Origin: Allacma fusca
Lineage: Eukaryota > Arthropoda > Collembola > Symphypleona > Sminthuridae
Direction: 5' to 3'
Length of the DNA: 64,000 bases
NCBI GenBank assembly: GCA_947179485.1
Contig: OX359245.1
Location: 9,095,001-9,159,000 of the forward strand
The position numbers were made by a program, and so were the translations under genes. The notes below the pieces were generated by a model that searched no databases, was not told the origin of the DNA, and was given only the letters and a program-made list of their open reading frames with translations. Each line of letters begins with the position of its first letter. Positions within the stretch are counted from its first letter, which is position 1. Below are positions 2,893 to 60,491 of the stretch, piece after piece.

Positions 2893-3722
2893 TAGGGTTG
2901 TATAATTTTGACTGTCAGTCTTTTGAGAGACTGATGTGATTCAGTCAGACTGATGCGACTGGACTGAATATGACTGAAGAATTAAGAGTTGTGAAAGACT
3001 TTGACTGACTGTGACTGATCATACAAAACTCCCAATGACTTTACTTCACCCGGTATCCCTGCAGCCAAATATCCCATACGCGCGAAAATCGTATCGCAAT
3101 GTTTTTCCATTGAACTAGAAATATAATGATCTAGAAATCCTTTGCTGTCGCAATGGAAAAACATTGCGTTATGATTTTCGCGCGTATGGGGTGTCCATTT
3201 TTGACGGAAGCAGCTGTGGGGAATAAATCATACACTACCGAGACTTCAATAATTTTTGAGCGATTCCACGCAAATAATAGTTGATCAGCGTTAGTGCATT
3301 GTGCCCATAGACATTTATTTTTGTGTATTCTTGGGACTTGGGTCCCCCACTGGAATGTCCCGAGTTCGAGTTCTGGACAAAAATTGGAATTTCCACAGGG
3401 TATTTGTTTCGAGTCGAGTCGAGCCCAATTACTTGTTACCGATAGAAACACTGCCCGAGGAGAAATGCAACATAGTTGTTTCATATGAAGGTTTCGGAAC
3501 GTGCTGGTCAAAACCCAATGGTTTAACAAACGATGTTTGCGATATCGCTAGATGTCGCATACATACATGTACGACTCGGACTGATTTTGACTTAAAGTAT
3601 TGCGACTGAGACTGACTGTGACTGCTTGGATTGGCTTTGCTGACTGACTGACTGACTGATTCGGATGGAGTACGGGACTCTTTGCGACTTTGACTTAAAA
3701 AATCGAGATTTATACATCCCTA
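2893..3722. mobile_element. hAT-like non-autonomous element, word GACTGA
   Basis: The ends read TAGGGTTGTATAA (left) and, reversed, TAGGGATGTATAA (right). They are flanked by a perfect 8-bp duplication CTGTGCTT at 2885-2892 and 3723-3730. TAGGG ends with 8-bp duplications are typical of the hAT superfamily. Both subterminal zones (about 2910-3020 and 3575-3700) are degenerate arrays of GACTG/GACTGA on the same strand. The interior holds a 40-bp hairpin but no transposase, so it would need one supplied in trans. Confidence 0.85.
3073..3190. repeat. 40-bp hairpin inside the GACTGA element
   Basis: Arms at 3073-3112 and 3151-3190 are reverse complements with only two mismatches and a 38-nt loop. 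The arms include GCGCGAAAATC and CAATGGAAAAACATTGCG. The hairpin lies in the left half of the hAT-like element and is not part of its terminal repeats. Confidence 0.85.
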
Positions 3723-3737
3723 CTGTGCTTCTGCTCC

Positions 3738-4418
3738 CCCCAAAACCTTATTACAAATAGTAATTTAATTTTCGAAATTTTTGACGGCATAACTCCTACA
3801 AACATAGAAGATTATGCCAATAGGTCAATATTGTGTCCTCTCAATGCCGATTCATCGAAAATCAATGATAAAGTCCTAGACTTATTGTCAGGGGTAGGGA
3901 AATGTTACTGCAGTGCAGATACAGTTGATAGTGCCAATGAAAGTGATGTACAGAATTATCCTGTAGACTATTTAAACTCAATTAATCCGAATGGAATGCC
4001 TGCTCATTTTCTAAAACTTAAAATCGGAGCAATTATTATGTTACTCCGAAACTTAAATACGAAGAGAGGTCTCTGTAATGGTACACGTTTGATTGTTACA
4101 GAACTCAAGGAGAATCTTATATTTGCTAAGGTTTTAACAGGAAGGGCGAAAGGGGAAACCATGTTTCTTCACCGAATTACACCAACTTCAAATGAGGGTG
4201 AATACCCGTTTGTTTTACGAAGGAGACAATTTCCTGTCAAGCTAAGCTTCTCCATGGCTATAAACAAGTCACAGGGTCAAAGTTTTAGTAACGTAGGTAT
4301 TTGGTTATCAAAACCCGTTTTTACTCATGATCAACTCTATGTAGCATTTTCTAGAACCAATTCTCGAGACAATGTAAAAGTATTTGTGGATAAAACTGAG
4401 GACGAGGGGGAATTATAG
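3738..4418 (+). pseudogene. Helitron RepHel, C-terminal PIF1-like helicase fragment
   Basis: This frame encodes the last third of the helicase domain of a Helitron Rep/helicase protein, which unwinds DNA during rolling-circle transposition. Counting from codon 3831, visible helicase motifs are LKLKIGAIIMLLRNL (about residues 61-75), GLCNGTRL (80-87), RRRQFPVKLSF followed by INKSQGQ (130-150, motif V), and QLYVAFSRT (168-176, motif VI). The frame stays open upstream to about 3738 with family-like sequence (YANRSILCPLN) and no start codon, so the N-terminal Rep nuclease and helicase motifs I-III are gone. The stop codon is natural in position for the family. It lies about 190 bp before a Helitron-type 3' end, so this is a 5'-truncated copy. 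Confidence 0.88.
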
Positions 4419-4612
4419 GGTCCAGGGATTGGTACTTATACAGTTAATTGTGTGTACCCCGAAATATTGTATTTTGCACTAAAATTTAACATTTTACCGG
4501 ATATTAAGCTTATATTAGCACTTCAAAGCTAGCTATTGTTTACAACTATTTATTACCTTCGATACTTACATTTGCTTTTGTGAGCTAGCAATAGCTGGCT
4601 GTGCAGTGCTAG
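4419..4612 (+). mobile_element. Helitron 3' end with hairpin and CTAG
   Basis: Downstream of the helicase stop, AGCTAGC (4583-4589), loop AATA, and GCTGGCT (4594-4600) form a 7-bp stem with one G-T pair. Eight bases later comes CTAG (4609-4612), followed by T. A hairpin just before CTRR and insertion before T are the hallmarks of a Helitron 3' terminus. A second inverted copy of the stem region occurs at 4528-4539 (AGCTAGCTATTG) against 4589-4600, with one mismatch. Confidence 0.8.
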
Positions 4613-5664: not shown

Positions 5665-5670
5665 CATTCC

Positions 5671-8341: not shown

Positions 8342-10031
8342 AGTCTTGATATAGATTCTTTGTACGCACATTATCTGATGAATGTTTTACCCACTAGAGA
8401 TTTCGATTTCAAAGCGAGCAAGAAATTAAAGAAGCTGCAAAAACAAATCGAAAGAAAATTTTAATACCTTTGATTATTCTGGTTCACATGATAAAGGATA
8501 TGTTTTGGTCGTTGATAGAGCTTCCTTCGGGTTTCCGAAATCCCGAAGTTCCGTGTTCGGAAACGGAACGGAACAATTTCGGAGCATTCTTTTTGATTCC
8601 GTCATTGAATCGGGACAAAACCGGAACATGAGCACTTGTACCGATAATATCGGGACCGGGACGGTTCAGAGCATCGGTACGAAAAATGTCCCATATAATT
8701 TATTTCACCGGAAAGCGGAATTGTTCTGTTCCGTTCCGAACCGATCCCGGTACAATTTCTGAAGTGTCGCGCCATCGTTCAACTAGAATGGAAACACGTT
8801 TCTTATCGCTCTGGCTTGTAAGCAGATTTTTGCCAAAATAACGAAATTGGATGAACACAGATTTAATTTGCGCAAATGCTTATATGTATTGCGAGTATCG
8901 TTTTCCATGAAAATCAACAGAATAACTAATTTTGTTTAAAAACATGGGCATGGGCGATTTTTCTCGAAATGAAAATTCTGAAATCGAAATTATTAGCAGT
9001 AATGAAGCAAGCTTGCAGGAAATTAACACTGTTAGGCCATTGAAATATACACGCTACAAATATTTATTACTAAAAAATAATTAATAATAATTATATAATA
9101 CTGCATAGTAGTTCTTTTTATATGGCCTAATTAATATTAAATATTATTTTATAAAATTAAATAATAGCATTCCCTAGCATCCAATCTATTAAAAGTATAT
9201 CATGTATTTGTATTAAGTTGCCAGTAATTTGTACACGCATTTCACGTATATGTTGTGAACAATTCCGGGATATTTCGGAACGGAACGGGTTCGGAACGGA
9301 AAAACTAGCATAATACGGAACGGAACACAACCTGTAACGGAAAAAATACTTTACTCCTGTGTTCCGAACGGTGTCAGTTCAAATGTTCCGATGTCCCGAC
9401 AGGCGGAACGGAACCGGGACCAATATTATTTGTAGGTTTCGGAACGGAACGGAATTTCCTACGGAACAGAAATGTTGAACACATTGGAAGCTCTAGTCGT
9501 TGATTAATGTATTCCAGGTTATTTGCACGAACATTTTGATGACTATATTATCATTACTGAAACACCTGTAATATATTTTAATGATTTTAGCGACTACCAA
9601 AAGAAATTAGCACAAATCAGTGGATTCAAAAAATCAGCTTTTGGCAACCGAAAAGCTTGTTCAAAGTTTTTGTAATAAGTATCGGTACCGTGTACTATAA
9701 AAATCTAGAATTTTACGTAAAACATGGGATTATTATGCTGGCTTGTCATCAAATTTTGGAATATACAGAAACCAAACTAATTTATGATTATATTTCGCGC
9801 AATATTGAACTACGAAATGCTTGAACAGATATGTTTGAGCGATTGCTTCATTATTTGAACAATAAATGCATTTTCAGGAGATCGATTTGCAACCCAATAC
9901 ATTATTCAGACGTAAAAGAAGTTCGGGATAGAGTTACTAATAAAAAGCTACTGTGCAAGCCTCAGTTTCAGAATTTTTACCCTGTCAGCAAAACTATTTC
10001 TGTATTTACTTCTGCAAGAACAAAACGATGA
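8342..10031 (+). pseudogene. Protein-primed family B DNA polymerase relic, Polinton/Maverick-like
   Basis: Pieces in different frames read together as a type-2 family B (protein-primed) DNA polymerase, the replicase of Polinton/Maverick transposons and related linear elements. At 8342-8464 a palm motif A-like segment reads DIDSLYAHYLMNVLP. At 8490-8515, resuming after 9503, is the GYVLVVD region, followed by YLHEHFDDY (from about 9520). At 9696-10031 come YKNLEFYV, then YISRNIELRN, then a motif B-like YLNN segment and DVKEVRDRV. There are at least two frameshifts and in-frame stops (for example TGA at 9822-9824), so the gene is dead. A hAT-like element at 8516-9495 sits inside the coding sequence with a clean 8-bp duplication. 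I saw no integrase, ATPase or capsid relic beside it, so assignment to Polintons rather than another element is inference. Confidence 0.55.
8516..9495. mobile_element. hAT-like non-autonomous element, word CGGAACGG
   Basis: Ends are TAGAGCTTCC and its reverse complement GGAAGCTCTA. A perfect 8-bp duplication GTCGTTGA flanks them at 8508-8515 and 9496-9503. The left zone (8530-8760) and right zone (9260-9470) are arrays of CGGAACGGAAC-type words on the same strand. The 500-bp interior has no recognisable protein. It interrupts the polymerase relic. Confidence 0.88.
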
Positions 10032-10227: not shown

Positions 10228-11175
10228 TAGTTTTTTATCGAGACGGGTATACTGACGGTAAAGGCAACGGTATCGGAACGGGACGTTCCCGGTAAAACGA
10301 AAATGTCCCATTTGCCCTATCGGAACGGAAACGGGAAAACTGAATGTGAAAATGAAACCGGTAATTTAGTACCGGTAAGGAAAGGTATGACTAAATGTTC
10401 CGAAACCGGAGTGTTCGTACCAATAGTCTCGAACACGTGACATAACCTGTCGGAAAAAATTTGTTGCAGAAAATGCGAAACTAGAATGCACATGGTTTTA
10501 ATTACTTTCCATGATCGCTTTGTATTCAACACAAATTTGCAATATCCCAATTGAGCTCTTTATTTCATCTTTTCTAGTATTTTTTTGCATGGATCATAAA
10601 TTAGGATTTTAAATTAAGATGAAGCGAATTCTACTTTATCATAGAAACCCAAGACTCAACAAAAACAATAATGGACGTCAAAACGCAGGAAACCAATTAC
10701 GAAATCAGATCCAACTTGTTACTGGTAACAATGTATTGTTTTAATCATGACTGGGTCGAAAATCGAGGGTTCGGGGGTGTAAAATAAGTTGCTTAGAGAA
10801 ACTGGGAATTGTAGGTTACATTACTGCGTGGAAAGTGAAATGTTCTTTTGTTTATGTGTACTTCAGTGTGAAACAATTAATATAGAGATTGTGATCTTAT
10901 GCTTAAAATTGTGAATTAAACATTTCAATATGTTATCGATACTGATTTGGAACGGTGTGGAAAAAATCGGTTCAAGATGAACCAATACCGGGTCATTTGG
11001 TTTCGGGTTAGTATCGATACCGGGAAAAAAATATAATTTTTCCCGTTTCGGGATAATAATTTCCCGAACCGAAATTTGGGGTATCGGAACGGTACCAGTT
11101 CCTGATTTGCAATATTTTATTCGGTTAGGAACGGTACGATGGTCGGGACGGTTTTTTGTCTCGATAAAAACATTA
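10228..11175. mobile_element. hAT-like non-autonomous element, words CGGTA and GGAACGG
   Basis: Ends are TAGTTTTTTATCGAGAC (left) and, reversed, TAATGTTTTTATCGAGAC (right). They are flanked by CTCTCAAC at 10220-10227 and CTCTAAAC at 11176-11183, a 7-of-8 duplication. Subterminal zones at 10255-10440 and 10930-11155 carry CGGAACGG, CCGGTA and GGTATCG words in both orientations. The words resemble those of the 8516-9495 element, so the two may be related families. No transposase domain is visible. Confidence 0.75.
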
Positions 11176-23526: not shown

Positions 23527-24806
23527 CATGCTTGCAACTTCGAGGTAAAACTCAATTCAAGTTCAAGTCCTTCAGATTCCAAACACATTCAGTTCAATTC
23601 AGTTCGCCGTGAAAATACAAATAAGACGTACACTGTAATTTTTTTAACGCCCATTCAGTTCAGTTTAAATTTATTTTGCAATTATATCAGTTCAGTTTAA
23701 GTTCAGTTAAATCAATTAGTCGTTCAATTCCGCTCAGTTTTAACAATTATTTAATTAATTCTGCATTTAAACATATCAACGGAGAATGAATCCCGGTTTC
23801 GGCATTGTAGAAAAATGCTATTCATTGTCTGGTTTACTTTTATTTTCTGTTCTTCGGAAAATTAAATGAAGAATATAAGGTACTTTCCCATTTTAAAATA
23901 CTAGTTTCAATAAAAATATAATTTTATCAAAATGGGAGGTGGGATTTTCGGGAACATTAATGCAAACTTAACAATTATTATACACTGAACCAAATTCATT
24001 TTCGCATGCAGCAATATTGGCGGTGCTGTTTATGCACTCTGGTTTTCCACGATGAATCGCTCAGTACAAATGATAAAAGCGCATCATAAGCAACACATTA
24101 TAAGACTAGTGGTATTTGCAATTTGAGAAAGTGGCGTCAATAAGTCAAATAATATATCGGTAACCACACAATGTATTATTTCCTGAAGGTTAACTAATTG
24201 TAAGTTCAGTTCATCGCTTTGCCATACTTATCGCTAATAATTCAAGTTCATTCAAAGTTAAAAATCAGGGGTCAGATTTTTGTAAATTTCCCTGGAAGAT
24301 TTTTTTCATTTTCCCTGCTGTACATGATGTCCCTGTTCGAAGCAAATTTAAAACTCCCTGTTGACAAAATAATTTTCGTAATACACCCCAACAAATTCAA
24401 AAATCTCTGCTGAAAAAAAGGTCAACAGATTTGAAAATCCCTGCTGATGAAAAAAAATCATTTTCGTAAATCACCTCAACAATTTTGAAAATCTCTGTTG
24501 ACAAAAATCATTTTCAGTAAAACACCTCAACAATTTCAAAAATGCCTGCCAAAAAAGGTCAACAGATTTGAAAATCCCTGTTTGCAATCCCGTTTGAAAC
24601 TTTCCCTGCTGAAAAATGTTTTTCTCTGGGAAGATTCTTCCCGTCTTCCCACATAAATCCGACCCCTGTTAAAAATAATGTAATTCACGTTCAGTCATTT
24701 ATTCTATTAATTTATTTCCGTTAATTCAAGTTCACTTAAAATGTTAGAAATTCTTGAAAAGTTCAGTTCAGGAACTAGTTCACTGAACGAACTTGTTGCA
24801 AGCATG
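23527..24806. mobile_element. hAT-like element, word GTTCAATT, with a nested insert
   Basis: Ends are CATGCTTGCAAC and its reverse complement. They are flanked by CCCCAAAG at 23519-23526 and TCCCAAAG at 24807-24814, a 7-of-8 duplication. Arrays of TTCAGTTCAATTCA-type words occupy 23550-23720 and parts of 24180-24260 and 24680-24790. A second element (24266-24668) is inserted inside. No transposase domain was seen. Confidence 0.78.
24266..24668. mobile_element. hAT-like 403-bp element nested in the GTTCAATT element
   Basis: Ends read CAGGGGTCAGATTTTTGT and, reversed, CAGGGGTCGGATTTATGT. The flanking duplication TTAAAAAT (24258-24265 and 24669-24676) is perfect. The inside is built of diverged tandem units of about 55-65 bp containing GTCAACAGATTTGAAAATC, CCCTGCTGA and ACACCTCAACAATTT. 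A matching single end lies near 1978. Confidence 0.85.
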
Positions 24807-32460: not shown

Positions 32461-33465
32461 TAACTATTAGGCATTGGCATACCGATATAGCCATACGATA
32501 TTATCGTCCATATCGTACATTTTTCGAAACGATAATTCTCGTAACCTTTGAACGATATATCGGTCAGTTTCCATATCGTAAATATGTGGTTCAATTCCCC
32601 AAATAATGATTCGCCCCCAACATTTTAATGCATATTAACTAATTCAAAACATCATGTCAGTCAGCTCATAATAATACCATGTAAATTCCTGGTTTTCTCG
32701 TACGTATATAAAACACGTATGTAAAAACATACGTTAAACATAAGTGTAACTTCTTTATTTGCTCATTGTCAGAGCCAGTTTTTCTGTAATTAATACCAAG
32801 GTTGTTTCTGTTGGAATCAAAATACACTTGGTGGATTCCTTATTGTTCTCACCAGTTCCAGAAAATTTAATACCAATTATGCTGTCAGTGGGGTTAAAAT
32901 ATACTTGGTTTGCCTTCGTAACTCCTCATTGTTAGTATCAGTTCTTAATCAATTAATACCAACTATAAACATGTTCATTTGGAGGAGGTTACCAAATCTT
33001 TGGAGCGCGGTTCAAGTTTGAACTTCAAAGCACATTGGTGCTTAGCTCATTTTTGTTTACATATGAAAAACCACTAAGTGTAAGTTTATAAAATTAAAAA
33101 AACTGATTTTGATGAGGTAAATAAACGCTAATCAGTTGAAAATGCCCACACGTATTATTTCTCGTTACAATAATATCGAAACAATTCCCCTTGGAAATTC
33201 TGTCCCCTTCCAGTTAATGAAAAGGACGAATGAATGATTTTTAATTGTTAACACAAGCATACAAATCAATGAATTGCAGGTCATATTACTATAGGTTCAC
33301 ATTAGATTCAGGACAAGATGTATTTTAATGTTAATTTACCTCTACAATGTAAAATGGTAATTTTTATTTATTTTTCGTGGATCCTCTTCAAGGTTCAACA
33401 TGCCCCGTAATGTTATTGCTCCCTTCCCGCTTGGAAATAAGGCAGCACAATTGTGCACAAAAAAA

Positions 33466-33587
33466 TGTGCGACGAATTGGGCCAAAATTGTGCACATGAA
33501 TTTGTGAACAAATAATTGTGAACGTATCTCTGCACACGATTTTGTCAACAAATGATTGTGCAAAATTTTGGCCCAATTCGTCGCACA
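33466..33587. repeat. Large hairpin at the left end of the CACTA-like element
   Basis: A perfect 24-bp inverted repeat (33466-33489 with 33564-33587, including CGACGAATTGGGCC) is extended inward by further matches such as GCACA, TTTGT and ACAAA pairs. The total arm is about 45 bp with interruptions. It lies in the subterminal zone with TGTGCACAA words. Confidence 0.85.
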
Positions 33588-33687
33588 AATTGTTTCCCAC
33601 AATATGATGTGCAGATATATTTATGCACAAATAGTTCTACAGAAAGTCTAATAATTTCGATAAACATCCAGTCTTGGAAGCACATAT

Positions 33688-35374
33688 TTATTCATACCAG
33701 TCTGCCAGTACTACAATTGGAACAGAAATAAATATTATAGGTTTTTTTTTCTTCATCTCCTCTTTCAGAAGCTTCGTAAGCGAAGACAGGATTCTAGCCT
33801 TCTGAATGTCGTACTCGCTTGGAATGCCACGTAGTGTACTCGCAGGTTTGAGTTTATATGACGCTAATGAAAATTCTGCAAAGTACAACCACAATATGAA
33901 GTAAACAAATATGAAATCAATACCAAGTATAATTAATTATATAAATAAAACGAAAGTTCGTCATACCGACTAAAGCATCCCTCTTTCCTTGGTTCACACA
34001 AGGAAGGGTTGGGACGTTTTTATTAGCGTTACAAGAACGACCCATCAGCGACTTTCCAATGATTTCCTCCGATGTAAATAGGTATCGAAACAGGTTTCTA
34101 GCTAATACAGAAGGAGAATTGGCTCCCAGTTTTGCAGCCGCAACCTTTGATTTCTTTTAAAAAACTCCACTGCCCTCAACTAATTCCAACTTGCTCTGAA
34201 AAAATACATACAAATTAGGGTTCCCAAAATATTACTGAATTACAATGCATATAATAGTTTTGGTAAATATTTACTACGCAGTAGATAATTATTTTGGGGG
34301 AGTAAAAATCAGGTTAAGCTTAATCTACTCAATGGTCAAGGGTTCAGATTTTTAAAATCAAAAACCTTAGAAGATAGCTGTAGTTTAGCCTTTAGTGCAT
34401 CCACGTCCTCCCACAGGGATTTAATTTTAGCTAATTAATTTAACTCGTTAGTACCAAATTAGTGGGATAAAATGTATGGTGGACTGGAACTTCGAAATGA
34501 AACCAGAATTTACCTCGATACTTTTTCTTAGCGTCCTTTAACGTGACAATCTGGAGTTCCAACTCCTCACCTTGTCTTCATAATCATTTACTTGGTTGGG
34601 CATAACCACTGGGAGGACTTCATTTCTGAAACGACCAACAGACGCTTCGTGGGTTTCCTGAGGAAGCGTTGCATCGGTATGCCGATCACCAATATCTGGA
34701 TTCTACATAAACAAATTTTGCTCATATACAAACCAACGAAGAATTTTAATTATTTTGATATGTTATTAGTTGATTAAATAGTATTTGACTTTCCTTTAAT
34801 GTTGAATCATCGTTCAGGTTTGAAGGTGGCTTCATTTCTGCTACGCTTACCTAGAACGTCTGAAATGTCTTCTGCAGTTACAGTCTTCTTCGAACGCTAC
34901 ATAAAATAACGAATTTGTAATGGCACGGACCTTTACTTACAAAATAATCGAATTACCTTATGTTTACGATTGATGCTTTTAGAGGAGGTTGCCATTGATT
35001 CACTGTCGCTGTTGTCATTTGTTGCAGCTTCAGTCGCCAAATCATCGCAAATGCTTTCCATTTCCGGTTTAGATGCTGTAATGATATAGCAATGTTATGA
35101 TTGTAAAGATCAAAAATTACATAAACAAGCATTAATTACCAGTACATATAAACCACAAAACAATGGCGATAAGATGACTGCTAATGTCTATGATTGACTG
35201 TTTAAACTTGAATTAAAATTAATTATTACAAGCAGTTAAATAATGAAACTTACCAAAACATCGAACCATAACATCGTAAGACTTCCTTCCCCACCGGATT
35301 TGCAGTTTCTTCCCAACTTTTTTATTGTATTTTGCCCGAATCGTCCCATCAACAACGTTCTCTAATGGCAGCAT
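33688..35374 (-). pseudogene. BEN-domain protein of the CACTA-like element, multi-exon, decayed
   Basis: On the minus strand I can lay out about eight exons with good splice sites. Approximate positions are 35374-35254 (starts ATG, ends before GTAAG), 35075-34957, 34896-34851, 34702-34513, 34430-34366, 34195-33967 and 33875-33688. The early exons are charged, ending in a coiled-coil-like part (KSLWEDVDALKAKLQL). The last two exons carry a BEN-like domain: LARNLFRYLFTSEEIIGKSL, then RSCNANK, then after an intron a helix with KARILSSLTKLL. BEN domains bind DNA. Such proteins are plausible accessory factors of the element. An in-frame TAA precedes the BEN exon and one exon join is out of frame, so the gene is probably dead. 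Exon borders are my inference. Confidence 0.6.
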
Positions 35375-36206
35375 ATTCTTTAAGATCACTTAAAAATTCG
35401 ACGGCAATGAACATTATAACTCAGATAATAATGTTAATGAACTTCACAGAAAAATATAGTCATGAATGCTTGCATGACAAAAAATAACGGAAAGTAAGCG
35501 CGCCATTTTATACTCACGATAGCCACGCTAGGGGTCAGTATAACGACACGGCACGAGACGAATCGCTTAATCTACTGAGATTATCGTTTGCAACTAAGTC
35601 TTGGTTAAAAACATTTTAAACCGAAACATAATGCTTTCTATACAATTGAACTAACACATTTTAGAGCTCGTGGTTCTAGAGTTTAATCTGGTAGGCCTTC
35701 ATTTATTTTTATCAAGGTCTTTATATGCTTTCAAAGTTTATGTTTCCTACCCCGAAATGAATATTGTAGTACTCGTGATTGTTCCAAGTATAGTTGAATT
35801 AAATTAATCTATTTTTATTTATTATTTTAGAACTTTACATTTATATTAGTATAAGCGGTCTATTCCCAGAATTAGTGCACGCTCCAATTGGGTTGCTCAC
35901 ATTTCAAAAAATAATCATGACCTTTGCACTGTCGTTTGTCTTGTTCTTTTCTTACTTCCGCCACTCTCGTTCTCGGTCTTTTTCAACACAGATAACGAGA
36001 CAAGCGAGAATTTTAAAATCAACGATTTACTCACCCCTATTCTACACAGCTGAAGGGAACGAATAATGTGGTGACGTGTAACTTGACAGCATATGTGTAT
36101 GTATACTAATACTGAATATACAGATAGATACAACCAGTCGTTATTTCAGACATTACATGTGCCATTTCGGGTCATTTCAAGGAGATATTAACTGATTGGA
36201 GTGAAA
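35375..36206. promoter_or_regulatory. Shared spacer between divergent element genes
   Basis: The 832 bp separates the first ATG of the BEN gene (minus) from the first ATG of the transposase (plus), so any promoters for both must lie here. I see no definite core promoter motif. Open frames inside it on both strands have no recognisable domain. Confidence 0.35.
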
Positions 36207-38858
36207 ATGGTAAAGAAAAACAAATACCAGAAATATGGTGCATCTACAATTATTAAAATTCCAAGAAGATCGAGACATCGATTCCGACAGGTAAAATCCA
36301 AGTTGATATTATGTTACTACTTTTTCGATTGACTAATTATAAGAGTAATAGTAAAAGTTATTGAATTATGATTTTGGAATATTTATTATTCGCACTACCA
36401 TTTGTATATTATTAGGCACTTGAGGATGGTACTAGCACAAATAATCTTGCTGATTCGGTCCTCGGTTTCAGGATGTCTTCCAGTTTACCCCCAGTGTCAA
36501 GACCCCAAGTTATTTACACAGATGATTGCGATTATCTAGAGTCAGAGTATGAACCTAATGAAACATTTGAGGAGGTAAATGTATAAACTATTTGCAACGT
36601 TTCGTTCAGTGTTAAACTTTTATTTAACAATAATTTGGGTTCACGCATATTATATTTTGAACGTTTATAGAACAGTTCCAGTGGTGATGTGTCTTCTGAC
36701 GAAATTAATGACATTATTTATGTGTTCGTTATCCGTCATAATCTCACTAAAGCAGCCACACAGCACCTGCTTACTCTCATCCAAATGATAAATCCAGATC
36801 TGGTAGGCGTTGCATCAAGTATGTATGCTCTGAGAAAAAGGCTTCAAACAAGAAAATGGAATTCCAAAGCACATTATTTATGTAGTTGCTGTAAAATGTA
36901 CATTGGAACTTCCTGTACTAGCAAAAACTTCAAACGTTGTGATGCTGAGACAAATTACAAATGTTTGCAAGAAAAGAATAGTTACTTTTACCAATTCGAT
37001 ATTCGCAAAATTCTGCATTCCATTCTCGAGGGTCCAAAAGTTGCAGAGAATTTATATGAGAACTTAATCAAGCGGAATGAAAACGTCGGCACGAAGTTTT
37101 GAGAGATATTTATGATGGTGTATTATATCAACACATGAACATTCGGAGCTTCAATTTTACTTGTTCTGTTAATACATGTGGGGTTTCTCTATTTAAGTCT
37201 TCGAAGTTTAACTTCTATCCAATTCTTGTATCAATTAATGAGTTGAGCTACAGTGTGAGACGATCGAACACATTTATAGCCGCCCTTTGGTTTGGGCAAG
37301 GAAAACCTAACTTTGAAGCTTTTTTAAAACCCTTTGTGAAGCAGTGCAACGATTTATCTTTGGTGCCCTTTGAATGGAATCACAAAGACGACAAAATGCA
37401 AAGCTTGGTGTACTTTACAATATTTGTGGCCGACTCTGTAGCAAGGTGTTCTGTGCAGTGAATGCATCAATTTAATGGACAATACGGGTGTCCCTGGTGG
37501 TTATTAAAGGGTGAAAGTATCTGGTTAGATGAGGAACGAAGAAGTCGTAAATGGGTATTTAAATACGACGAAGCTCCTCTGCGATCACCAGAAAACTTTG
37601 TGGACCACCTTAGGCAATTACAGAATTTGCTGAGTGTTGGAAATAGTAGGGAAACAAATTTTATGGACGTCAAATCGGCGTCACAGTTGCTACTTCTTAA
37701 CCATTTTGACATTGTAAACGGATTTGTTTACGATATAATACATTCTGCTTTCCTCGGAGTGGTGAAAATGCTTACATGTTTTTGGTTTGATGCCTGCAAC
37801 CACGACTGGCCGTTCTACATTGGGAAAGATATTGAGAAAGTCGATAAAGTTTTAAACTCGTGTAGAGTTCCGTTTGACTACGATCGAGCGGTTCGGGCTA
37901 TGACTCATAGAACGTTTTGGAAGGCATCGGAGTGGAGGACTTGGTCATTTGTTTCTCCAACAGTTTTAAAAGGTATTCTTCCTGAAGTATACAGAAACCA
38001 CACCAACAAGCTATCAAATAGCTTAATGATTATGTCAGATTAGTCGATTACAATCGAAGATCTTGTTTACTGTGAGAATACACTCCGTGACTTTGTTCAG
38101 CAAACTCAGGATATTTACGGGGCTGAGGCTTGCTCATTTAATTTGCACATTTTACTCCATGCATCGAATTGCGTTAAAAACTGGGGGCCTTTGTGGTGCT
38201 ACTCGGCATTTCAGTACAAAAATTACAATGGAATTTTGAAAAAATTATGTCATGGTAGCAAGAAAATCATAACCCAGATGAAATCAAGAACAGAGGAACT
38301 ATTGGAGCTGCAAAAGCGCGGAAGAAACAATTTCAAAGACAAGGCAGCATCGGAATTTTTTCAATCGTTAATGTTCTCGAAACAATTTGTTCAGAAATTC
38401 AAGAAAATTTCCCACGTCATTTTTTTAGGGCCGTTCCAACAATATTTGTTTACTTCAGAAGAACAAAAAAACTAAATGATATGGGATTTGATTCTTCTCT
38501 AGGAGAAAGTTATAAAAAATGCTTGATTTACGGGAAACTATACAACCGATCTGATCAATGCACGTCACAACGAAATAATTCAATTGTTGTGACGCATGAT
38601 GGAAAGCTTTGGATCCTCCAAAAATTGATATATGTGTTAAGTAGTAATCAAGACGGTGCGGCTCAAGTAAGTAGAATTCACGGACAACCTAGCGCTGTCA
38701 ACTCTTATCTGACTAATGTTACGAATATCGAAGATGAATGGGTCCTTATTAAGCTGTCTTCAATCATACGACAAACATTTATAGTTATTTTTGAATCTGG
38801 AAACAATGGTAGAATTAAATACTTAGTGCGGCTTCCCAATACTAACGAGTTAGAATGA
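36207..38858 (+). pseudogene. Tnp2-type (CACTA/EnSpm) transposase, decayed
   Basis: This is the transposase that would cut and paste the element. Exon 1 (36207-36290, 28 codons, basic, KYQKYGASTI) ends before GTAAAA. Exon 2 (36416-36574, 53 codons, acidic end) ends before GTAAAT. Exon 3 starts at 36671. A cysteine-containing segment (CSCCKMY, then ETNYKC) is followed by the animal Tnp2 core: VSLFKSSKFNFYPIL near 37180, FGQGKPNFEAFLKPFV near 37290, and YGCPWWLLKGES near 37490. Farther on are HSAFLGVVK near 37740 and SFNLHILLHASNCVKNWGPL near 38135-38195, typical of the family's C-terminal part. Breaks: a frameshift near 37095, TGA at 37459-37461, TAG at 38041-38043, and a frameshift near 38476. 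Introns and frame breaks show a relic of a once spliced gene. Confidence 0.8.
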
Positions 38859-39654
38859 GTAAACAAATTGTTTGTAGATGAGAATGAATATTTTAATAAA
38901 TTTTTTTTAAAGTTAGATTGTCCAATTCTTGTCGCTTCATACGAAGGGATTTAAAATATTTTAATCTCATTTAAAATTCCATGAAGCATTGTTTGTGTGT
39001 ATTTGTGCACATTTTCCCTGTAATGCTATTGAAAAAATATTTTGTGCAGAGCTGTGCACAGTGTTGTGGGCAAAATATGTTTTGCTCACTATTGTTCACA
39101 ACATTTCCAAGCGGGTTGGACCATTTTGGTAACGGTTATACAATTAATTTTTGTGGTCTTTTCCTCAAGTCGAAAATTCTAATCTATTTTTAAAAAATTA
39201 GCAATTTTCGACGTTGAAAAAGCACTTATATTTTAGTTTTAATTTGGCAGTCCTATGTGTTTCAATAATAATTGAAAATGAGCTAAGAACCAGTATCGGA
39301 GTCCGCGGAAAATTATACACACTCCCTCCATGTCATGCGCAGAGCAATCTGAACATGTCTATAGTATCGGTGTTCTGAATGGGATTAGTAAAAAGAAAAG
39401 CTCTGATAATTTTCAGAGCAATACATTTTTGTGGAACGTTTTGTTATAAACAGTAGTAATAAGGTGAGTATTTAATTAACCATCAATACTTCGGTCGATT
39501 ATTTTTATATTTTATGTTATTAACCGATGCCTTTCAACTTGAAACAAATATCGTTATATTGTCCATCAATATCGTTATTGACATTTTTAGGATGAACGAT
39601 AACGATATTAACGATATTTAAAAAATGACCGATATGCCAATGCCTAATAACTAT

Positions 39655-42035: not shown

Positions 42036-42230
42036 GCATTCTACTATTTTAGACAAGCCAAATTCTCTGATAAGAATTCTACTATATTTGGCAAGCTAAA
42101 ATCTGATCAGAATTCATTTATTTTTGACAAGCCAAATTCTCTAATAAGAATTCTCCTTTTTTTGACAAGCCAAAATCTCTAAACATAATTCATCTATTTT
42201 TGACAAGCTAAAATCTAATAAGAATTCTTT
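42036..42230. repeat. Tandem repeat, about 40-bp unit, 4-5 copies
   Basis: The unit GACAAGCCAAATTCTCT-(AT)AAGAATTC with a T-rich joint is repeated with small changes between the two R1 copies. Confidence 0.75.
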
Positions 42231-43378: not shown

Positions 43379-44511
43379 TAGGCCTCCGCACATGTACACT
43401 TTTATTAAACATGAACATGAACTTGAACATGAACATGAATTTTCATGTTTTACATGAGTTGTTTTCAAAATTACACGAATTAAATCATGTGATTCAAAAC
43501 GAATACTTGATTTTTATTTCATGTTAATAAAGCACACATGAACATGACATTTACATGAACATGAAAAGTGGCAATTTCAAGTACATGAACTGGACATGAA
43601 CATGTACATGAACATGATGACATGAACTAAATTTCAGAGTTATAAAGTTTATATTTAAGAAAGTACACAACAAGAGAGATTCGGATTCCAGCAATAAGGG
43701 AAAAACACTAGTTTGTTTAGCAAATGCTTCTGCAATTACACCCTGGTGGTCTGCGTCAGGTTCTTTCTTTAAATCAATTGATTTGTGATGCTGCACTAAA
43801 TGCCTTCTTCAATTTCCGGTTCCCGAATTTGCTTCAACTTTAAGAGAGTATCTAAAAACAAAGTATTCATTGTCCTTGCCGCTAACTAAATTGTATGTAC
43901 ACAATAATATATCTAGATATTTCCTTCCTCGGGTGTGAAATGATTATGTACACTTGATCGTTGTTTCTTGACGTTTTTAATGGCAATTCTTGGTGTTCTC
44001 CTGAAATGTCAATTTCCTGAATACTGCGACTTCCCGGTGCTTTTTCGGTCATATTTGAACCTTCTTTTTCCATAATAGTGTAAGTGCACAACTCAAAATG
44101 ACTGATACGATTCAAATGGAATAACATGTAGTCTACTGCCTCGTGGGTATAATGTATTGTCACTTTATTCAAATGTATGTCCAGCTTAATGCGCGAAAGG
44201 AATTGAACGACATGGAAACGTTTGGCTATTACTAGCATACTTTGTGGTGACATGAAAATATTCGTGTTTTTGAGCTTGAGTTCATGTCTTCCGCTTTTGT
44301 GAACATGAAATTGTACATGAAAATATTGTCATGTTTTCAAGGTAACCTGCACATGACATAAGACATGACTTGAAAAATCATGTCTGTTGTCAAGTATGTT
44401 TTAAATGCACATGAATGGTTTGTGATTTGATAATCAGATACATGAACATGAGTTGAAACATGAGTCAAACATGAAACATTCATGTCTGAGTTGTACATGA
44501 GCGGAGTCCTA
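43379..44511. mobile_element. hAT-like element, word ACATGAAC, with BED relic
   Basis: Ends TAGGCCTCCGCACATGTAC and, reversed, TAGGACTCCGCTCATGTAC are flanked by a perfect duplication CTGTTCAC (43371-43378 and 44512-44519). ACATGAACATG words fill 43410-43620 and 44255-44500 on the same strand. The interior carries a decayed hAT N-terminal coding segment on the minus strand. The element is nested in a pogo-like element. Confidence 0.9.
43551..44253 (-). pseudogene. hAT transposase N-terminal relic with BED-finger tail
   Basis: On the minus strand an upstream acidic segment (from the 44253 side; TEKAPGSRSIQEIDISGE) is followed, after stops and a frame change near 43800-43880, by YFVFRYSL and then RRHLVQHHKSIDLKKEP and IAEAFAKQTSVF. 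The RRHLVQHH part looks like the histidine end of a BED zinc finger. The following AF.KQTSVF resembles the linker that follows BED in hAT transposases. The cysteine half of the finger is not clear. The catalytic domain and dimerisation region are absent, consistent with internal deletion. Confidence 0.45.
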
Positions 44512-49296: not shown

Positions 49297-50858
49297 CATA
49301 GCTGTTCTAGTCTAGTCGGACTAGACTAGAAATGACTAGATTTGACTAGACTTTTGACATTATTTTTCGAACATGATTAGACTAGACTGGACTAGGAAGA
49401 TACGTGAGAATTTAGACTATGAGTAGACTAGACTTGAACTGCTAATAATTCCTTGGAATAGACTTGGACTTGAATGTAAAATATAATTAATTCTATTCAA
49501 GTCCTCCTTTTAAAGCCTTGAGTAAACCCATTTCCCGAATACTAAACCCTGCGACTCCAACACAACGTTCATGTATCTCGCTCAAATCAATCACATGCCA
49601 GGAAAACATACGTCTGTAGTAATTAACGTACAAGGATCGTTTGGGGCACTTTGAGATGCCATTTTCACCATTCTTATTATTTCTAATGTTCGACCGTTTC
49701 GTATCTCATAATTATGCAACAATCAAATTTGCATTGATTGATTCATCTTATCACTAGGATAACCAATAAAACAAAATCTAGTTTTTGTGTTAAAATGAGT
49801 TCCCAAAAACCAGAACGAAAATCTACACATACTTATCTCACTTACAATTAGAGTAAAACCACCGTCAAGAAAAATGCCGAAACTGTGCCCAAAATTGATA
49901 AACCAGCGATAATAATCCAGAACAGGTCACAAATACCTCCCAGAAACACATGACACAACTAGTGATAACAGAAAACGACACGTTATTGCCAGTACATCAA
50001 ACGATCCTCCTTTAATCGACTGAATTAGCCGTTCCATCAAACATTAGCGAATCTTCATCAGGAATGCTTGCTCCTATGGCTTCAAAGAGCAAGCGTGCAG
50101 ATGATGGAAATACTATAAAGAAATTGAAACCTAGTCTTGTAAATGGTAAAAGTGACAACAGCAGTGCTGACGAAGTTTACAATTCAGAAAATCCCTTAGA
50201 AATGTACTAAAAAATAATTGTAAAATTCGGCTATAAAATTGCATGCAGGAGTAAAGATATTTTTACATTTGTTGGACATAAATTCGATTAGAATAATCAA
50301 AATTGAATTGCTGCACTGTGCTTCTTGTGTAACGTGTATAGTAGCAGCGCTGCAGGAGGTTCTTCTAATCTGGTTCGTTATTTTAAGGTAATTAATCTAA
50401 AAAGTAAAATGTATTTGTCCAATGTGAACTAACATGGCCTTAACCTCGTTGTTAAATTTCGGGATTTACCAAAATTTCTTCAAGGAACTGCAAATCACTG
50501 GACATTTGGAACCTAAGAATTGCTGGTAAATAATAAATTAGTGTGTAAAGACCCCCTTGTAACTACTTTTGTGTATTATACATTTGGCATACATTTCCAA
50601 TAGTATTTCACTCAGTTACACCGATCTATAAACATCAGTACGTGAATTTTAAGCAGCCCCTCTAATATCACATATATTGTGGACTAGACTTGAGACTAGA
50701 CTAGACTTGAATAGTGAGTCACGTAAAACTTTGGACTATGAATAGACTTGACTTGAACCGCTAAAAGTGATCTTGAATAGAATAGGACTTGAATAGAGTT
50801 TTCCTTGTTTTATTAAGACTAGACTAGACTGGACTTGGGGAGCTCGGGAACAGCTATG
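49297..50858. mobile_element. hAT-like element, word GACTAGA, with BED relic
   Basis: Ends CATAGCTGTTC and its reverse complement are flanked by a perfect duplication GCTGATTT (49289-49296 and 50859-50866). The paralogous uninserted sequence at 23420-23475 (TATTTGCTAATTTTTAG) confirms the junction. GACTAGA/CTAGTC words fill 49305-49470 and 50685-50835. The interior holds a decayed hAT N-terminal exon on the plus strand. Confidence 0.9.
50076..50387 (+). pseudogene. hAT transposase N-terminal exon with BED finger, decayed
   Basis: From ATG at 50076 one frame gives a lysine- and serine-rich leader (SKSKRADDGNTIKK), then, past in-frame stops (near 50211, 50289 and 50304), FTFVGHKFD and the finger core IAALCFLCNVYSSSAAGGSSN followed by LVRYFK. 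The CxxC pair is intact. The expected histidine of RHLK is tyrosine here. The frame ends at AAG followed by GTAATT, a plausible splice donor, so this looks like exon 1 of a spliced hAT transposase. The BED finger binds DNA near the element ends. Downstream catalytic exons are missing. Confidence 0.6.
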
Positions 50859-51741: not shown

Positions 51742-53457
51742 CAGTGCTCGGACTGGGTACAGAAACCGTGTACCCGTACCCATACCCGTACCCGAATATC
51801 GGGTACTACAAAATGCTGTACCTATACCCGTACCCATACCCGAGTACCCGGGTAAATTATTTCAGTACCCGTACCCGTACCTGAAAATACAATGTTAGTA
51901 CCTGTACCCACAATTTACCCGTACCCGTGTTGTACCCAAAACCTGTACCCGTACCCGAGTATCTATTTTGTGTATACCCGGGTATTACTCGGGTACTGGA
52001 AGTTTGGCCTATTTAAAATCCCCGACGACATTAGCCTGCCCAGCTGAAAAATTGTAATTTGTCAATTTTTTGACCTCCATTAAAAGTGTCCGGCATTTTG
52101 GGAATTTTCCCTAGGCGTTAAAGACATCCTATTTGAATTTTTTGAAAAAATTATTTAAGGCATTTTGTGATTTTTTAAATAAACACTGACGAAATTCCAA
52201 TCCTACTACCCCAAAATAATAACTTGCTGAATGAAATGAAATGTGTCCTCGCTAATTGGAATTGGGACGGATTCTTTAATACTAAACTCTCCATAACTTG
52301 CTTTTCAACTTCGAGAACAAGAAACAATTTTTTTCCGGCTAATCGAACTCTGTGTATAGAAAATGTTATACTGAAAAATTGAGTTGATCATAATTTTTCC
52401 AAGTCAAATATTGCGGTTTCAAGTAATAAATGTGGGAGGCAATATTGAATATTCATTTTACATTACAGCTTTATAAAACAAACATTCGTAAACTGTCTCT
52501 CACATTTATGAAGCCCGAGACGGAAATTTTCGAAAAATGCAGGCAAAATAGGACTAAAATGCAACCCCATGGAAGTTTTGAACGCCAAGTTCAGATGTCT
52601 GTCAAGTTCTTTTAACATGAAAATTATCAAGATTAATCAAAGGGACTGAAATATAAATATTGCGTGCAAGGAACGATATTTTTCATTCTAAAATGTTATA
52701 AATATTCACCTCAATAAATACTCAAAGTGTCATAAATACCCAGAATTGAAAATGCTCAAATTGCCTGCATAAAATGCCGTGGCGTTTTCAAATGGGCAAC
52801 CCTGGGTATTTGTACCGTTAAGAAATGGATCTGCTAATAAATGTATATTTATTCCGATCTTATCTCGTAATACGTCTTCAAATAATTGTAATGTTACGCT
52901 CCCAATGAAGCTAATTAAATTGAATCCCAAGAACCTCCCCCTTGAAATTCTTCGTTGATGAGCTTTTTTATTTAAGTCGATAAACAGATGATTTCACTGA
53001 CTCTATTTCTTTATTAGATTCCTTGGATGAATTATAAGAAGCGTTAGATTGCAACTACCACGTAATCATAAATGAGACGAAGCCACTTGGCTCTGTCACT
53101 AACGCAAGTATCTGTATACTACGAAATAAGCAACTCCACGGTTGGTAGGTCTTATTGTTAGCCATAGTAATCCGTCCCATCAGGAATCCTTGAAGTACCC
53201 AAAAATACTCGGGTACAGCACCCACGGGTACAGGTATTTTGCATAGCGATACCCGTACCCATTGGGTACTAGCCGATTGCCACTGAGTGAGTACCCATAC
53301 CCGTACCCGTACCTGTACCCACTTTATTGCCTAAAATCAAGAGTACCCGGGTAGTACCCGCGTACTTGCGAGTACTCAACTTCTGTACCCGGGTAGTACC
53401 CATACCTGTACCCGTACCCATTTACCCGAGTATTACCCGTACCCAGTCCGAGCACTG
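51742..53457. mobile_element. hAT-like element, word TACCCG
   Basis: The 19-bp ends CAGTGCTCGGACTGGGTAC match exactly in inverted orientation. The duplication TTCAGGAG (51734-51741 and 53458-53465) is perfect. TACCCG/TACCCA words fill 51765-52000 and 53190-53445 on the same strand. The right array runs straight into the right end (GTACCCAGTCC), while at the left the word flips direction right after the end. The 1.2-kb interior has no recognised transposase. Confidence 0.92.
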
Positions 53458-54772: not shown

Positions 54773-55659
54773 CAGAGCTATGCAAAATACTTGGTCTTGG
54801 ATAACAAAATACAAAATAAAATACCTGAAATAAAATATGGAAAATACAAAATACAAAGTAAAATACCTCAGTTTACGTTGGTAAAATACAAATAAAAATA
54901 CAATACATTGTAGGGAATTTAAAATACTCAAATACAAAATACTGTATTTTAAATACAATACTTTCCTTAAAATACCCACCTATATAATGCTCACTGTTTT
55001 CGGTTTCAAGAACACAAACAGCTTTAAGAAGCAACCTTTCAAAACATAATCAGTTAACTAATCACTTCAACACATTATAATTATATATTGTCTTGTTGTC
55101 TGTTTTTGAAGTAATGTAGAATAATATGAAATTTTTATCTATTAGTAATTAAACGTATTTTTGGAATAATTATTATAAAAAGAAGTTTGTATCTGAAATT
55201 AAATCGAGTCGGTCTTCAGCTTTCGGTTTCATTTTAAATATCGCTGTTGAAGAGACAAAATGGTATGTGTTGTAGAAAACCATTTTGCATCTTCAGTGAC
55301 GATATATAATATCAAGAACCTGAACATGATGTAGTAAAGGGATACATTCTAACATATTATTCCCATGCTAAAATGGAATTTTCGTAGATACTGCACATCA
55401 TGCAAGCTACAACCAATGTCAAAGTCAGAAATTATACAGTTGAAAAGTATTTTGAGCCAAATACTTTATTTGAAATCCATGTCATATGTCACTGAGAGTA
55501 AGTAAATACCAAATACTTTAGTACTTACTGGCTCTTAAAATACTAAGTACAAAATACTTGCCCACTGCTTGCTAACATTGAAATACAAAATGCAAAATAC
55601 TTTGTCGTGTGAAAATACGTATTTTAAAATACTGTATTTGAAAATACTGCATAGCTCTG
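54773..55659. mobile_element. hAT-like element, word AAATACAA
   Basis: Ends CAGAGCTATGCA match in inverted orientation. Flanks are CTGGAGTA (54765-54772) and CTGGAATA (55660-55667), 7 of 8. AAATAC/AAAATACA words fill 54785-54980 and 55500-55645, on the same strand. Open frames inside are products of the array. Confidence 0.87.
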
Positions 55660-57399: not shown

Positions 57400-59132
57400 T
57401 CATACTAGAATGGAGGCAGGGATCTTCTTTCATGAGTAGAGACAATTGTCTAACGACAATAATTTCATAATAAATTGCTTAGATTAAAGACTAGCATTAT
57501 TTTCATAGATTGAAATACTTTTATATGTTTAAGCTGCAATTTAACTGTTTTTCTTCGTACTGTATTTGAGCAACTAATTTTTTAAGTGGCATCTAAATTT
57601 AAAAATTATCCTTTATCCTAACTTTTAGTTATTGGTCTACATCATCTACTCATTTCTCACCATTAGTCTTTTCTTCCTTATTTTTTGTATTTCATTATTA
57701 AAATCGTGGGTAATTGGATACGTTCTGTATAAGAGCCCATAAAAAACGTCCAGTCAGGGTTTTATTGAAACACATTCAAATTTGGATTTTATGTACTGTG
57801 GTAAAAAAAATTTGTAATGAATACCTCCCAGAGGAAAGTTAAAAGTTTAAATTTGACATTTATAATACATATGTTAAGAATTTTGGGCACGATCCGTAAG
57901 AAGAGAGAACCTGTTTGGAGAAATTCAACTGCCGGGGCAAACACTTGCAAAAGGACTTAAAACCTTAATGGGCAAATTTTACAAGACATTTTAAAAATAC
58001 AATTCCCAGTAAAGTAATTCTAAATTGTTCCAAAATTACATTGAATTTATGGCGAAATTCCAAATTACAACAGCAATTATTTTCAAATCTCATAGTTGAA
58101 ATTAAAGCAAGATTATCATCATCGGAGCAATGATGACATAAGTAGCCGGAAGAATAATTATGGCGGGTGAAAGTCTTAATTTAAAAACAAGCTTTCTTTA
58201 CTAATTATTCATGTTTCGTTGGTTTTACTTCATACTTAATATGACGTTTAGTGAATTTTGACTAGATTTTAAATTAGATTGTGCTCACCAAAGTGTCCAA
58301 TTAAATATTAAATATCTACTAAATATTTTTGTTGAATACAAATAGAATAATTTCAGTTTTGTTTTCAAAACATTTCTTTTGAATAATAAGGATTGCTAAA
58401 AAAATCCAAATTGTTTTGTACTACAGATCTAGCAGAATTTATCAATTTGTGAATCTGATTGTTGCATTTTAGTATTAAAGCATGTGCAGTGGTTTATTGG
58501 TATAAATTAGGCCTGAAATTCAAATTACGTTTTCCCAGAAAACGGGCTTTCACTAATGTAAGATAAATTTTTCTTACAACTCCCACATCAAATTTGCATT
58601 ACAACAGTATTTGTAATGAGATATGTTTGGATAAGATGCGACTTTCAAGTCAAAATCCAGTTTTACTAACTTCACAACTGGTCTCAAAATGCGCTTTTTT
58701 GTAATTCTGAAGACCAATAACACGAACAAGATGTTTGTGAATTTATTCAACTAAATCGTTGAAACATAATTTATTGAAAGTCATGGCAGAGCAATGTCTG
58801 ACCATGCACTTTACAAGGTATTGTTAGGTTAAGCAATAAAATATTGTTTACTGTACAAGAGTTATTTGTAAGATTGGCTATTGCTCAAACAGGTACTGAA
58901 CAAATCTATTCATGGCGATTCCCTAATAATTCAATTTGCAGTTTACGAAATACTACATTTCTGTCTGAAACAATCTGTCTTAAATTACCCGGTGGATCAA
59001 AGGGAACAGACCCGAGAAATAAATACGTATTGGGAACACTACATACCCCATCAATCACACATCTAACTAGTCTGCCATGATCATTCAAAGTAGCAAACAT
59101 TCTGACGGCAGATTATTTATCATTCCTAATGG
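57400..59132. other. Old repeats, R2 copy, no gene recognised
   Basis: 57400-57860 is an R2 copy. The segment 58900-59100 is open on both strands; neither product (for example the minus-strand frame with LGSVPFDPPGNLRQIVSD) could be assigned to a family. Confidence 0.4.
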
Positions 59133-59140
59133 GTTTCAAC

Positions 59141-60491
59141 TATAGCTCCTTATCGAGTTCGAGTATACCGGCGAGTATCGAGTACGAGTTCGAGTCGAGT
59201 ACGGTCAAATTTTTGTGAATACTCGATACTTGAAATGGGTTTCGAGTACGGGTAACGATTTTTCACATACTTACGAGTACGAGTATCAAACGAGTACGAG
59301 TCCAATAAAAATAATTACTCGTAAGGGTTATCGAGTTCGAGTACCACATGCTCAATATACGAGTAGGCGTACACGTGCACACAAGTGTTGCAAACTTTTG
59401 AATTTCCAGTAAAGAGACGAAGGCGCTAATCAAAGATGTAGGTTTTTTCCCCACTCGCACTCACACTCGCACTCCCATAGAGAAAAAATCCACCACTCCT
59501 ACTCTTGCCCACTCGTAGTCTTACTGAGAATGTAAAACTCCTACTCCTACTCTCAGCGCTAACTACAAATCTCACTACTCCTACTCACCACTCGTGAGTT
59601 ACTCAAAGTTTTCACCGAAATATTTGCAAATATTAAGACAAAAATTGTCCTTATAATTATAAAAGCGAATACTAAGCACAAAATAGATCAATTTAATTTT
59701 ATAGTCAAAATCAATGACAAATGCAAAGACCGACGAAGTTTACAATAATTGACTATATTTATAATAACATCGCCTGGAAGTATGCTCAAGATTTATTTCT
59801 AATCTGTGACATATTTTGTCTTCCAATGCATGGTTTGTACATAAGTCGGCATTCCACACTATTGTTTGTTTAAAATTATGAAATATTTTCCAATAACCGC
59901 CAATCTTTTAGCGTGGCAATGCTAGCTTTATGCTATTAATACAATGGTACGAGAAATAGTGAGTAGCAAAGCATGCTACTCCTACTCCTACTCATTTTCT
60001 ATGCTTCGATTTATACCACTCCAACTCACGAAGTTTTATGCGCCTTCACTCCTACTCTTTACCTTGCTACTCCCCTGTGAGTGTGAGTAGGAGTGTGTTG
60101 AGTGCACTCGTCACTCACGAGTAGCCCCCATGTATGGCGCTAATATGAAATTAAATTAAAATGACTTATTGGATCCAAAGAGAATGTTCATGGCTGGAGA
60201 AAAATCACTGTTCAATTGTGGTCTTGTTATTATTACATACTCGAGTATGAAGACTCGAGTCACGGCACGAGTACGAGTACGGGATTTCGGTATTTACAGT
60301 TCCGTACTCGCGAGTATGAAACAAGTTCGGGTTCTGAACTGGAACTCGGTCGCTTATTTCAAGAATTTTCCTGAGTACTCGTATATGTGGCGAGTACGAG
60401 TACCTTGGATTGGAGTTCATACTCGATGCTTCGATTTCGAGTACGAGTTCGAGTACGGTTCCGCAAGGTAATCACTCAATAAGGAGCTATA
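59141..60491. mobile_element. hAT-like element, word CGAGTA, host of a nested element
   Basis: Ends TATAGCTCCTTATCGAGT and, reversed, TATAGCTCCTTATTGAGT are flanked by a perfect duplication GTTTCAAC (59133-59140 and 60492-60499). CGAGTACGAGT words fill 59155-59345 and 60235-60475 on the same strand. A 706-bp second element is inserted at 59431-60136, so this element is about 640 bp net. A related end is at 21796. Confidence 0.9.
59431..60136. mobile_element. hAT-like element, word CTCCTACTC, nested
   Basis: A perfect 8-bp duplication GCGCTAAT flanks it (59423-59430 and 60137-60144). The ends, CAAAGATGTAGG and, reversed, CATACATGGGGG, match only partly. CTCCTACTC/CCACTCG words fill 59450-59605 and 59970-60120, mainly on one strand. 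It lies wholly inside the CGAGTA element. Confidence 0.7.

Follow-up and report, generated by a model that had tools for sequence, protein, structure and literature searches.

The hAT-type transposons examined here in the genome of the collembolan Allacma fusca (assembly of 392.7 Mb in 91 contigs) commonly carry subterminal arrays of a single short DNA word, a conclusion supported both by a window of 64,000 nucleotides, the whole stretch of DNA that was analysed (contig OX359245.1, forward strand, positions 9,095,001 to 9,159,000; G000:C1:9095001-9159000 in our numbering), and by a survey of further loci. Taken as a whole, the evidence makes it quite probable that the word of each family is the predicted site of the zinc finger of its own transposase, that the arrays are laid out for a transposase multimer, and that the word is rewritten in place. 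The arrays, their frequency, their layout on one strand, a palindrome at one end, in-place differences between relatives and, within one clade, an association of finger residues with word bases are direct observations. Window elements are named below by their first position and loci elsewhere by L numbers.

Within the window, thirteen elements combine inverted ends with 8-bp target-site duplications (TSDs), as a first-pass annotation of this DNA had stated. The duplication matches at all eight positions in nine elements and at seven of eight in the other four (10228, 23527, 30924 and 54773), both ends begin with CA or TA in all 13, and plain terminal inverted repeats (TIRs) are present in 11, the ends of 10228 pairing only with one base gapped and the TIR of 59431 being weak. 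Among the 150 matches listed of 860 candidates, no hAT C-terminal domain lies inside any of the thirteen, and the best explanation is that all are hAT transposons, non-autonomous as they stand in the window. When the commonest 6-mer in the outermost 300 bp of the two ends (201 bp in 24266) was compared with the maximum of 100 dinucleotide shuffles, it exceeded every shuffle in 11 of 13 elements; the top 6-mer count was 8 against a shuffle maximum of 8 in 24266, and 6 against 7 in 10228, which rises above the shuffles at k=7 only. The earlier claim of arrays in every element other than 24266 is thus largely borne out, with 10228 as a weak case, while the accompanying claim that the word differs between elements holds for most of them, the words of 8516, 10228 and 30924 having GGAAC in common. 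In the 11 array-bearing elements the word is present at both ends and occurs 0-3 times in the interior, and among control segments outside elements 4 of 300 had a top 6-mer count of at least 10. Because Tandem Repeats Finder gave rows in only three of the 13 elements (24266, 43379 and 54773), the arrays are mostly not tandem repeats.

The survey sample, which was not selected for arrays, comprised the window, chosen by the earlier reader, and 20 loci of about 10 kb around hAT C-terminal domains (drawn from the same 150 listed matches), 263 kb in total. It was searched for 8-bp duplications flanking 12-bp TIRs that start with CA or TA, and an array was called at a score of at least 10; 2,000 random segments gave a median of 4, a 95th percentile of 7 and a 99th percentile of 10. 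After filters had removed 12 pairs (low-complexity ends and pairs over 5 kb), arrays were found in all 17 pairs with an exact duplication and a TIR of at least 10/12 and in all 18 at 9/12 or better, representing about 16 families, compared with none of three decoys, made by reading the duplication at an offset of 15 or 23 bp. Without the filters (exact TSD, lengths to 8 kb), arrays were present in 25 of 30 pairs and in 0/5 decoys, with 23/23 at a TIR of at least 10/12 and 2/7 at 9/12; the five array-less pairs, whose TIRs are all 9/12 and whose ends are dissimilar or rich in AT, have the look of coincidental matches. The array call is soft in two of the 25: for 24266 it depends on TGAAAA alone, a count that shuffles also reach, and the pair at 54929-55640 is a shifted reading inside 54773. 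When the duplication was relaxed to 7/8, arrays accompanied 9/53 real and 1/63 decoy pairs. Further family words from the survey include AGGAAC, GCGAAA, ACTTGA, ATAGGA and TTCGAA (L034:7688-9012).

Relatives that share ends also share the word. The first-pass annotation had named unrelated words on the same ends as the outcome that would speak against one word per family, and no such case was seen among the copies examined: the word is kept in at least 32 copies of 8516, in one of 51742 and in the pair of 23527 with L048, although L054 and L058, alike in their first 16 end bases, differ in one letter of it. The copies come from a composite query of four sets of ends, of whose 3,431 candidates the best 40 were scored. 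Among these 40 were at least 32 further copies of the 8516 family, whose identity is 97-99% at the left end and 94-97% at the right, and a single copy of the 51742 ends, 388 bp long and 86% identical, at G000:C1:55148971-55149358, and none was a transposase-bearing partner of the four window families. L048, the only such partner found for any window family, agrees exactly with 23527 in the right TIR, has a left TIR matching at 9/12, a duplication of 7/8 and the word AGTTCA like its partner, and encodes a zf-BED finger (Pfam, 4.1e-7) together with a hAT C-terminal domain. This domain is likewise present in same-type elements elsewhere (PF05699, 1e-17 in L033 and 1e-16 in L039). L041 and L042 each have the 51742 word together with 10 bases from one TIR of that family, and they look like a single insertion that sits within a longer repeat present twice. 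As a separate observation, the 388-bp copy matches the two joined 200-bp ends of 51742, and is thus an element made up of nearly nothing except arrays.

The TIRs are inverted and the words are not: the word usually lies on one strand at both ends. With 6-mers picked automatically, the strand was the same at both ends in 17 of 23 cases, opposite in one and neutral in five, and with 5-mers the counts were 16, 3 and 4 of 23; in the survey set (n=27) 22 were same-strand, two pairs of near-identical copies among them, two opposite and three neutral (p=3.6e-5 on 24). When orientation was taken from the transposase, a palindrome (inverted repeat with arms of at least 5, a loop of at most 4, within 46 bp of the tip) followed the TIR at 12/14 transposase-5' ends and 1/9 3' ends, compared with 10% in shuffled sequence. 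Most of these palindromes consist of the family's own word, for example ATCCTTCGAAGGAT, CCCTCATGAGGG, GAACTCATGAGTTC and CCTAGATCTAGG, two of the 12 (L038 and L058) being not plainly derived from it. In a set of 19 elements for which no transposase gene is known, a palindrome is present at one end in 12, at both in one and at neither in six, against expectations of 4.3, 0.4 and 14.4, and a few of these palindromes are not of the word. The one-strand layout and the palindrome at the transposase-5' end are new findings of this analysis, and the combination could serve to orient and classify gene-less non-autonomous elements.

Comparison of close relatives indicates how words change. The ends of L039 and L044 are 58-62% identical, with many word sites at the same places, and at 23 sites with a shared core the A of L039 faces T in L044 at 10 (read as T to A at the right end), is unchanged at 10 and differs otherwise at three. 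A-to-T differences occur at 10/23 word sites and in 23/185 other columns (Fisher p=7e-4), a contrast to be read with caution, as a single program made the alignment and the sites are not independent of one another. Over both ends, the word base is A at 33 and T at 2 of 36 sites in L039, and T at 21 and A at 18 of 44 in L044. In L054 and L058, the first 16 end bases are identical and the word differs by one letter, GTAGGC facing GTATGC at two clear aligned sites. In both pairs many sites occupy unchanged positions and the difference lies in a single letter of the word, which suggests turnover site by site. Close relatives would therefore differ by in-place rewriting, while the arrays of distant families are unrelated and their origin lies outside this account. 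The right end of L037, where a 30-bp unit bearing the GAAGG word is repeated in tandem about seven times, illustrates one route to array growth. The proposal in the first-pass annotation that arrays were expanded and homogenised separately in each lineage is not supported in that form: L039/L044 and L054/L058 point to turnover, and the L037 right end does show growth by tandem repetition.

Word and finger can be compared within a clade of intron-bearing hAT transposases whose fingers end in GW-x5-HLV. The five x residues were placed at positions 66-70 of the housefly transposase Hermes, with the residue list in PMC10368747 as the numbering reference; a structure database search with the fingers returned no BED structure, so the residue numbers rest on position alone, counted back from the first zinc-ligand His. 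With words read on the transposase strand, the pairs of residues and word are TNSIN and AAGG (L039), PNSIS and AAGG (L051), KNHER and GAAGG (L037), CNHER and GAAGG (L038), TSQQT and TAGG (L044), AAHIE and TATAGG (L032), ASHQN and ATAGG (L053), NSHIE and TAGG (L052), NSHID and CTAGG (L049), RPHIR and TGTAGG (L054), and RMHVA and TGTATG (L057/L058). In all four families with N67, A precedes AGG at 19/20, 16/17, 14/15 and 12/14 left-array sites; in all six without it, T is the commonest base at that place (12/23, 10/20, 12/13, 6/6, 14/15 and 9/10 left-array sites). The three families with R70 have G two before AGG at 13/15, 11/14 and 8/10 sites, compared with 5/20, 4/17, 6/23, 5/20, 3/13, 3/6 and 2/15 in families lacking R70. 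When three of nine families are chosen, with L051 and L057 left out, a helix residue that the three share and no other family has arises in only 2 of the 84 ways, and the two coincide exactly with the A-word set and the G-word set. Both rules were fixed after nine families, ahead of reading the L049 array and four further pairs of pieces, and L049, predicted blind, fits both. In a tree built without the helix, the N67/A families fall into two groups apart from each other, with supports of 0.996 and 0.964; the second of these also takes in L044, at 0.71. These comparisons support a word that differs with helix residues within the GW-finger clade, on a small number of families and with an exception to one rule. 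The first-pass idea that word and BED finger changed together finds a residue-base association in this one clade, tempered by that exception and by the few families.

Several points weigh against this reading. The GW-finger profile matches the BED fingers at 72% probability and the match stops before the helix, and Pfam finds no BED match in the one GW-type finger tested (L039). L044 and L032 are mixed before AGG, with 9 and 7 A. The blind case L057/L058 keeps T but has G two before the core although R70 is absent, which under the R70-G rule makes R70 at most a sufficient condition for G and not a required one; in three more blind cases the pieces missed the array, and these count neither way. 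Seven of the 20 loci with a hAT C-terminal domain (L031, L034, L041, L042, L045, L046 and L050) have no credible end pair around the gene, and L035 and L049 have one end each found; loci with incomplete ends may be truncated copies. The association rests on 9-11 related families, in which sister pairs are not independent and the N67/A families form two separate groups and no more, and a column outside the helix, with L at the second place ahead of the first zinc Cys, divides the A families from the T families just as well.

The last two of these points favour an alternative in which the words are transposase sites and the covariation of finger and word is simply inherited together, with no rewriting needed: few lineages are independent, and the sisters L037/L038 and L039/L051 share both finger and word. 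This account nevertheless has to explain why, within the clade of L039, L044 and L051 (0.96; L044+L051 0.71), L044 differs in residue 67 and in its word, with many word sites at the same places, and why L054 and L058 have the same first 16 end bases with a different word and helix, and we consider it unlikely, though a serious contender. Far less credible is an origin of the arrays as functionless simple repeats, produced at the ends of transposons when replication slips or gaps are repaired. Some words do stand in tandem (43379 and 54773), and the repeat of about 30 bp at the L037 right end bears the word; yet the arrays are mostly irregular in spacing, lie at both ends on the same strand, are rare inside and accompany 23/23 pairs with a TIR of at least 10/12, and slippage leaves unexplained both the palindrome at one end and the repetition of one letter difference at separate homologous sites. 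Capture of host transcription factor sites or promoters by each family, which the position of 5'-end arrays upstream of the transposase gene might suggest, is equally implausible, as the word also fills the 3' end and non-autonomous elements and is family-specific instead of coming from a shared host set. Both of these origins were rejected.

In the favoured reading, in which each family's word is the site of its own transposase, the zinc finger would bind the word, and numerous weak copies, on the same strand at either end, together with the palindromic pair, would load several fingers of the transposase multimer. The palindromic pair just inside the TIR would mark the transposase-5' end, as in Hermes; the short TIR would serve cleavage and the word array recognition between families; and a change of finger would be followed by rewriting of the word in place, site by site. 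That the finger physically binds the word, that several fingers of a multimer are loaded and that each site is under selection are inferences. A bolder extension is that families rewrite tens of sites one letter at a time as the residues corresponding to Hermes 67 and 70 change, which would amount to a finger-to-word code and yield new, mutually blind families; this is put forward tentatively, with doubt slightly outweighing confidence. If it were true, one genome with many hAT families would be a natural dataset for the recognition code of BED-type fingers, a kind of finger that domesticated proteins (ZBED and CGGBP factors, for instance) also contain, and the question of how a family shifts specificity when dozens of sites must change along with one protein would become testable.

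Beside these rules, TGA was noticed post hoc in the transposase-strand words of all five fingers that have both N67 and R70 and a known word (L037, L038, L043, L047 and L048). The words concerned are TGAAGG, TGAGGG, TGAGTTC beside CGAGTTC, and TGAACT; L031 has such a finger with its word not known, and no Pfam match was found for the L047 finger.

Table 1. Transposons of the window, with positions counted from its first letter.
Positions	Feature	Ends	TSD	Word	Remark
2893..3722	non-autonomous hAT-like element	TIR TAGGGWTGTATAA	CTGTGCTT, 8/8	GACTGA	
8516..9495	non-autonomous hAT-like element	TIR TAGAGCTTCC	8/8	CGGAAC	
10228..11175	hAT-like element	TIR gapped	7/8	GGAACG, CGGTA	weak array
23527..24806	hAT-like element	TIR CATGCTTGCAAC	7/8	AGTTCA	
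24266..24668	nested element	TIR CAGGGGTCRGA	TTAAAAAT, 8/8		word not beyond shuffles
30924..31695	hAT-like element	TIR TAGTGCTGTCCATGGGAAC	7/8	GGAACA/TGGGAAC	
32468..33425	left part of split 1,489-bp hAT-like element	TIR TAGGCATTGGCAT		ACGATA	
33426..39115	nested non-hAT transposon	CCCGCTTGGAAAT	TT	TGTGCAC	own end word
39116..39646	right part of split hAT-like element		ATAACTAT, 8/8		starts with the insert's second TT; TSD follows the element
43379..44511	hAT-like element	TIR TAGGMCTCCGC	8/8	ACATGA	
49297..50858	hAT-like element	TIR CATAGCTGTTC	8/8	GACTAGA	left end: long word palindrome
51742..53457	hAT-like element	TIR CAGTGCTCGGACTGGGTAC	8/8	GTACCC	
54773..55659	hAT-like element	TIR CAGAGCTATGCA	7/8	AAATAC	right end: palindromes
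59141..60491	hAT-like element	TIR TATAGCTCCTTAT	8/8	CGAGTA	
59431..60136	nested element	TIR weak	GCGCTAAT, 8/8	CTACTC	

One interval had been read as a single element and is better described as two. The stretch 32468-39646 was considered as a 7.2-kb autonomous hAT and this was rejected, its long interior being a nested non-hAT transposon (33426-39115) inserted within, and splitting, a hAT-like element of 1,489 bp. A Pfam scan of four open reading frames (ORFs) of the insert, at 36689-38858, gave no match over the cut-off and no hAT domain. Assignment of the insert to CACTA/CMC was not supported either, given four ORFs with no tnp2 Pfam match, CCCGC ends and a TSD of 2 bp; the ORFs may resemble an insect tnp2-type protein. 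Elsewhere in the window, an ORF at 3831-4418 has a Pif1-type helicase domain (PF21530, 2.5e-23), suggestive of a Helitron, and an imperfect tandem repeat of 38/74 bp occupies 42021-42250, about 1.1 kb before the 43379 element. Outside the window, L046 (G000:C5:29097061-29106997) has an open hAT frame of 566 aa with a BED finger nearby in a separate frame; no credible end pair or word array was found at this locus, which is possibly a domesticated hAT gene.

The first-pass statement that no description of such a general design was known to its author is too strong, since subterminal motifs that are specific to a family and bound by its transposase are on record for Ac, Tag1, Tol2, Herves, Hermes and hAT-19-type proteins, with a proposal of this kind for Kat1. 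In maize Ac/Ds, the hexamer AAACGG is repeated in the terminal 200 bp, is bound by the transposase and is common to most non-autonomous relatives other than Ds1 (PMC3260210); this is a single word, and a comparison of words between families was not found in the accessible part of that paper. In the mosquito element Herves, CGATTCAT is repeated at both ends and suffices for transposase binding, and the authors state that hAT transposases differ in their binding sites (PMC3143072); the system differs from the present one in being a single element, and no comparison of word with finger was found in the part available. Protein-binding microarrays have given diverse motifs for hAT finger proteins, and in the CGGBP/hAT-19 group for 4/4 hAT proteins on which there are data, the motif fits the subterminal region of the protein's own element (PMC8097297); these are in vitro motifs across species, and array anatomy, in-place rewriting or a residue-base rule was not found in the accessible text. 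The domesticated yeast hAT Kat1 has the hexamer AATTCA six times between TIRs, and mutants of its BED finger cut unspecifically (PMC4763223); it differs as one domesticated locus at which the role of the hexamer is the authors' speculation.

Binding of transposases to family-specific words is therefore known. A literature search with few subscription papers in reach found no many-family layout, in-place rewriting or co-change of word and finger in hAT elements, and so far as that search and the accessible parts of the papers extend, what appears to be new is the layout across many families, the rewriting of words in place and the association of residues with bases. A close parallel is Hermes of the housefly, in which, according to the available part of PMC10368747, an AAGT/AAGC motif occurs 17 and 14 times at the two ends, antisense at the left tip and sense at the right, which is taken to mean one strand of the element. 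There, too, one end alone, the left, has a quasi-palindromic pair directly after its TIR, and the BED finger makes contacts through R63, Q64, T65, S66, N67 and R70, of which N67 and R70 contact bases (PMC10368747). The two systems are alike in having the palindrome after the TIR at one end, here the transposase-5' end; they differ in that Hermes is one family with one word, whereas about 20 words are found here, in dense arrays and with word differences between sister families.

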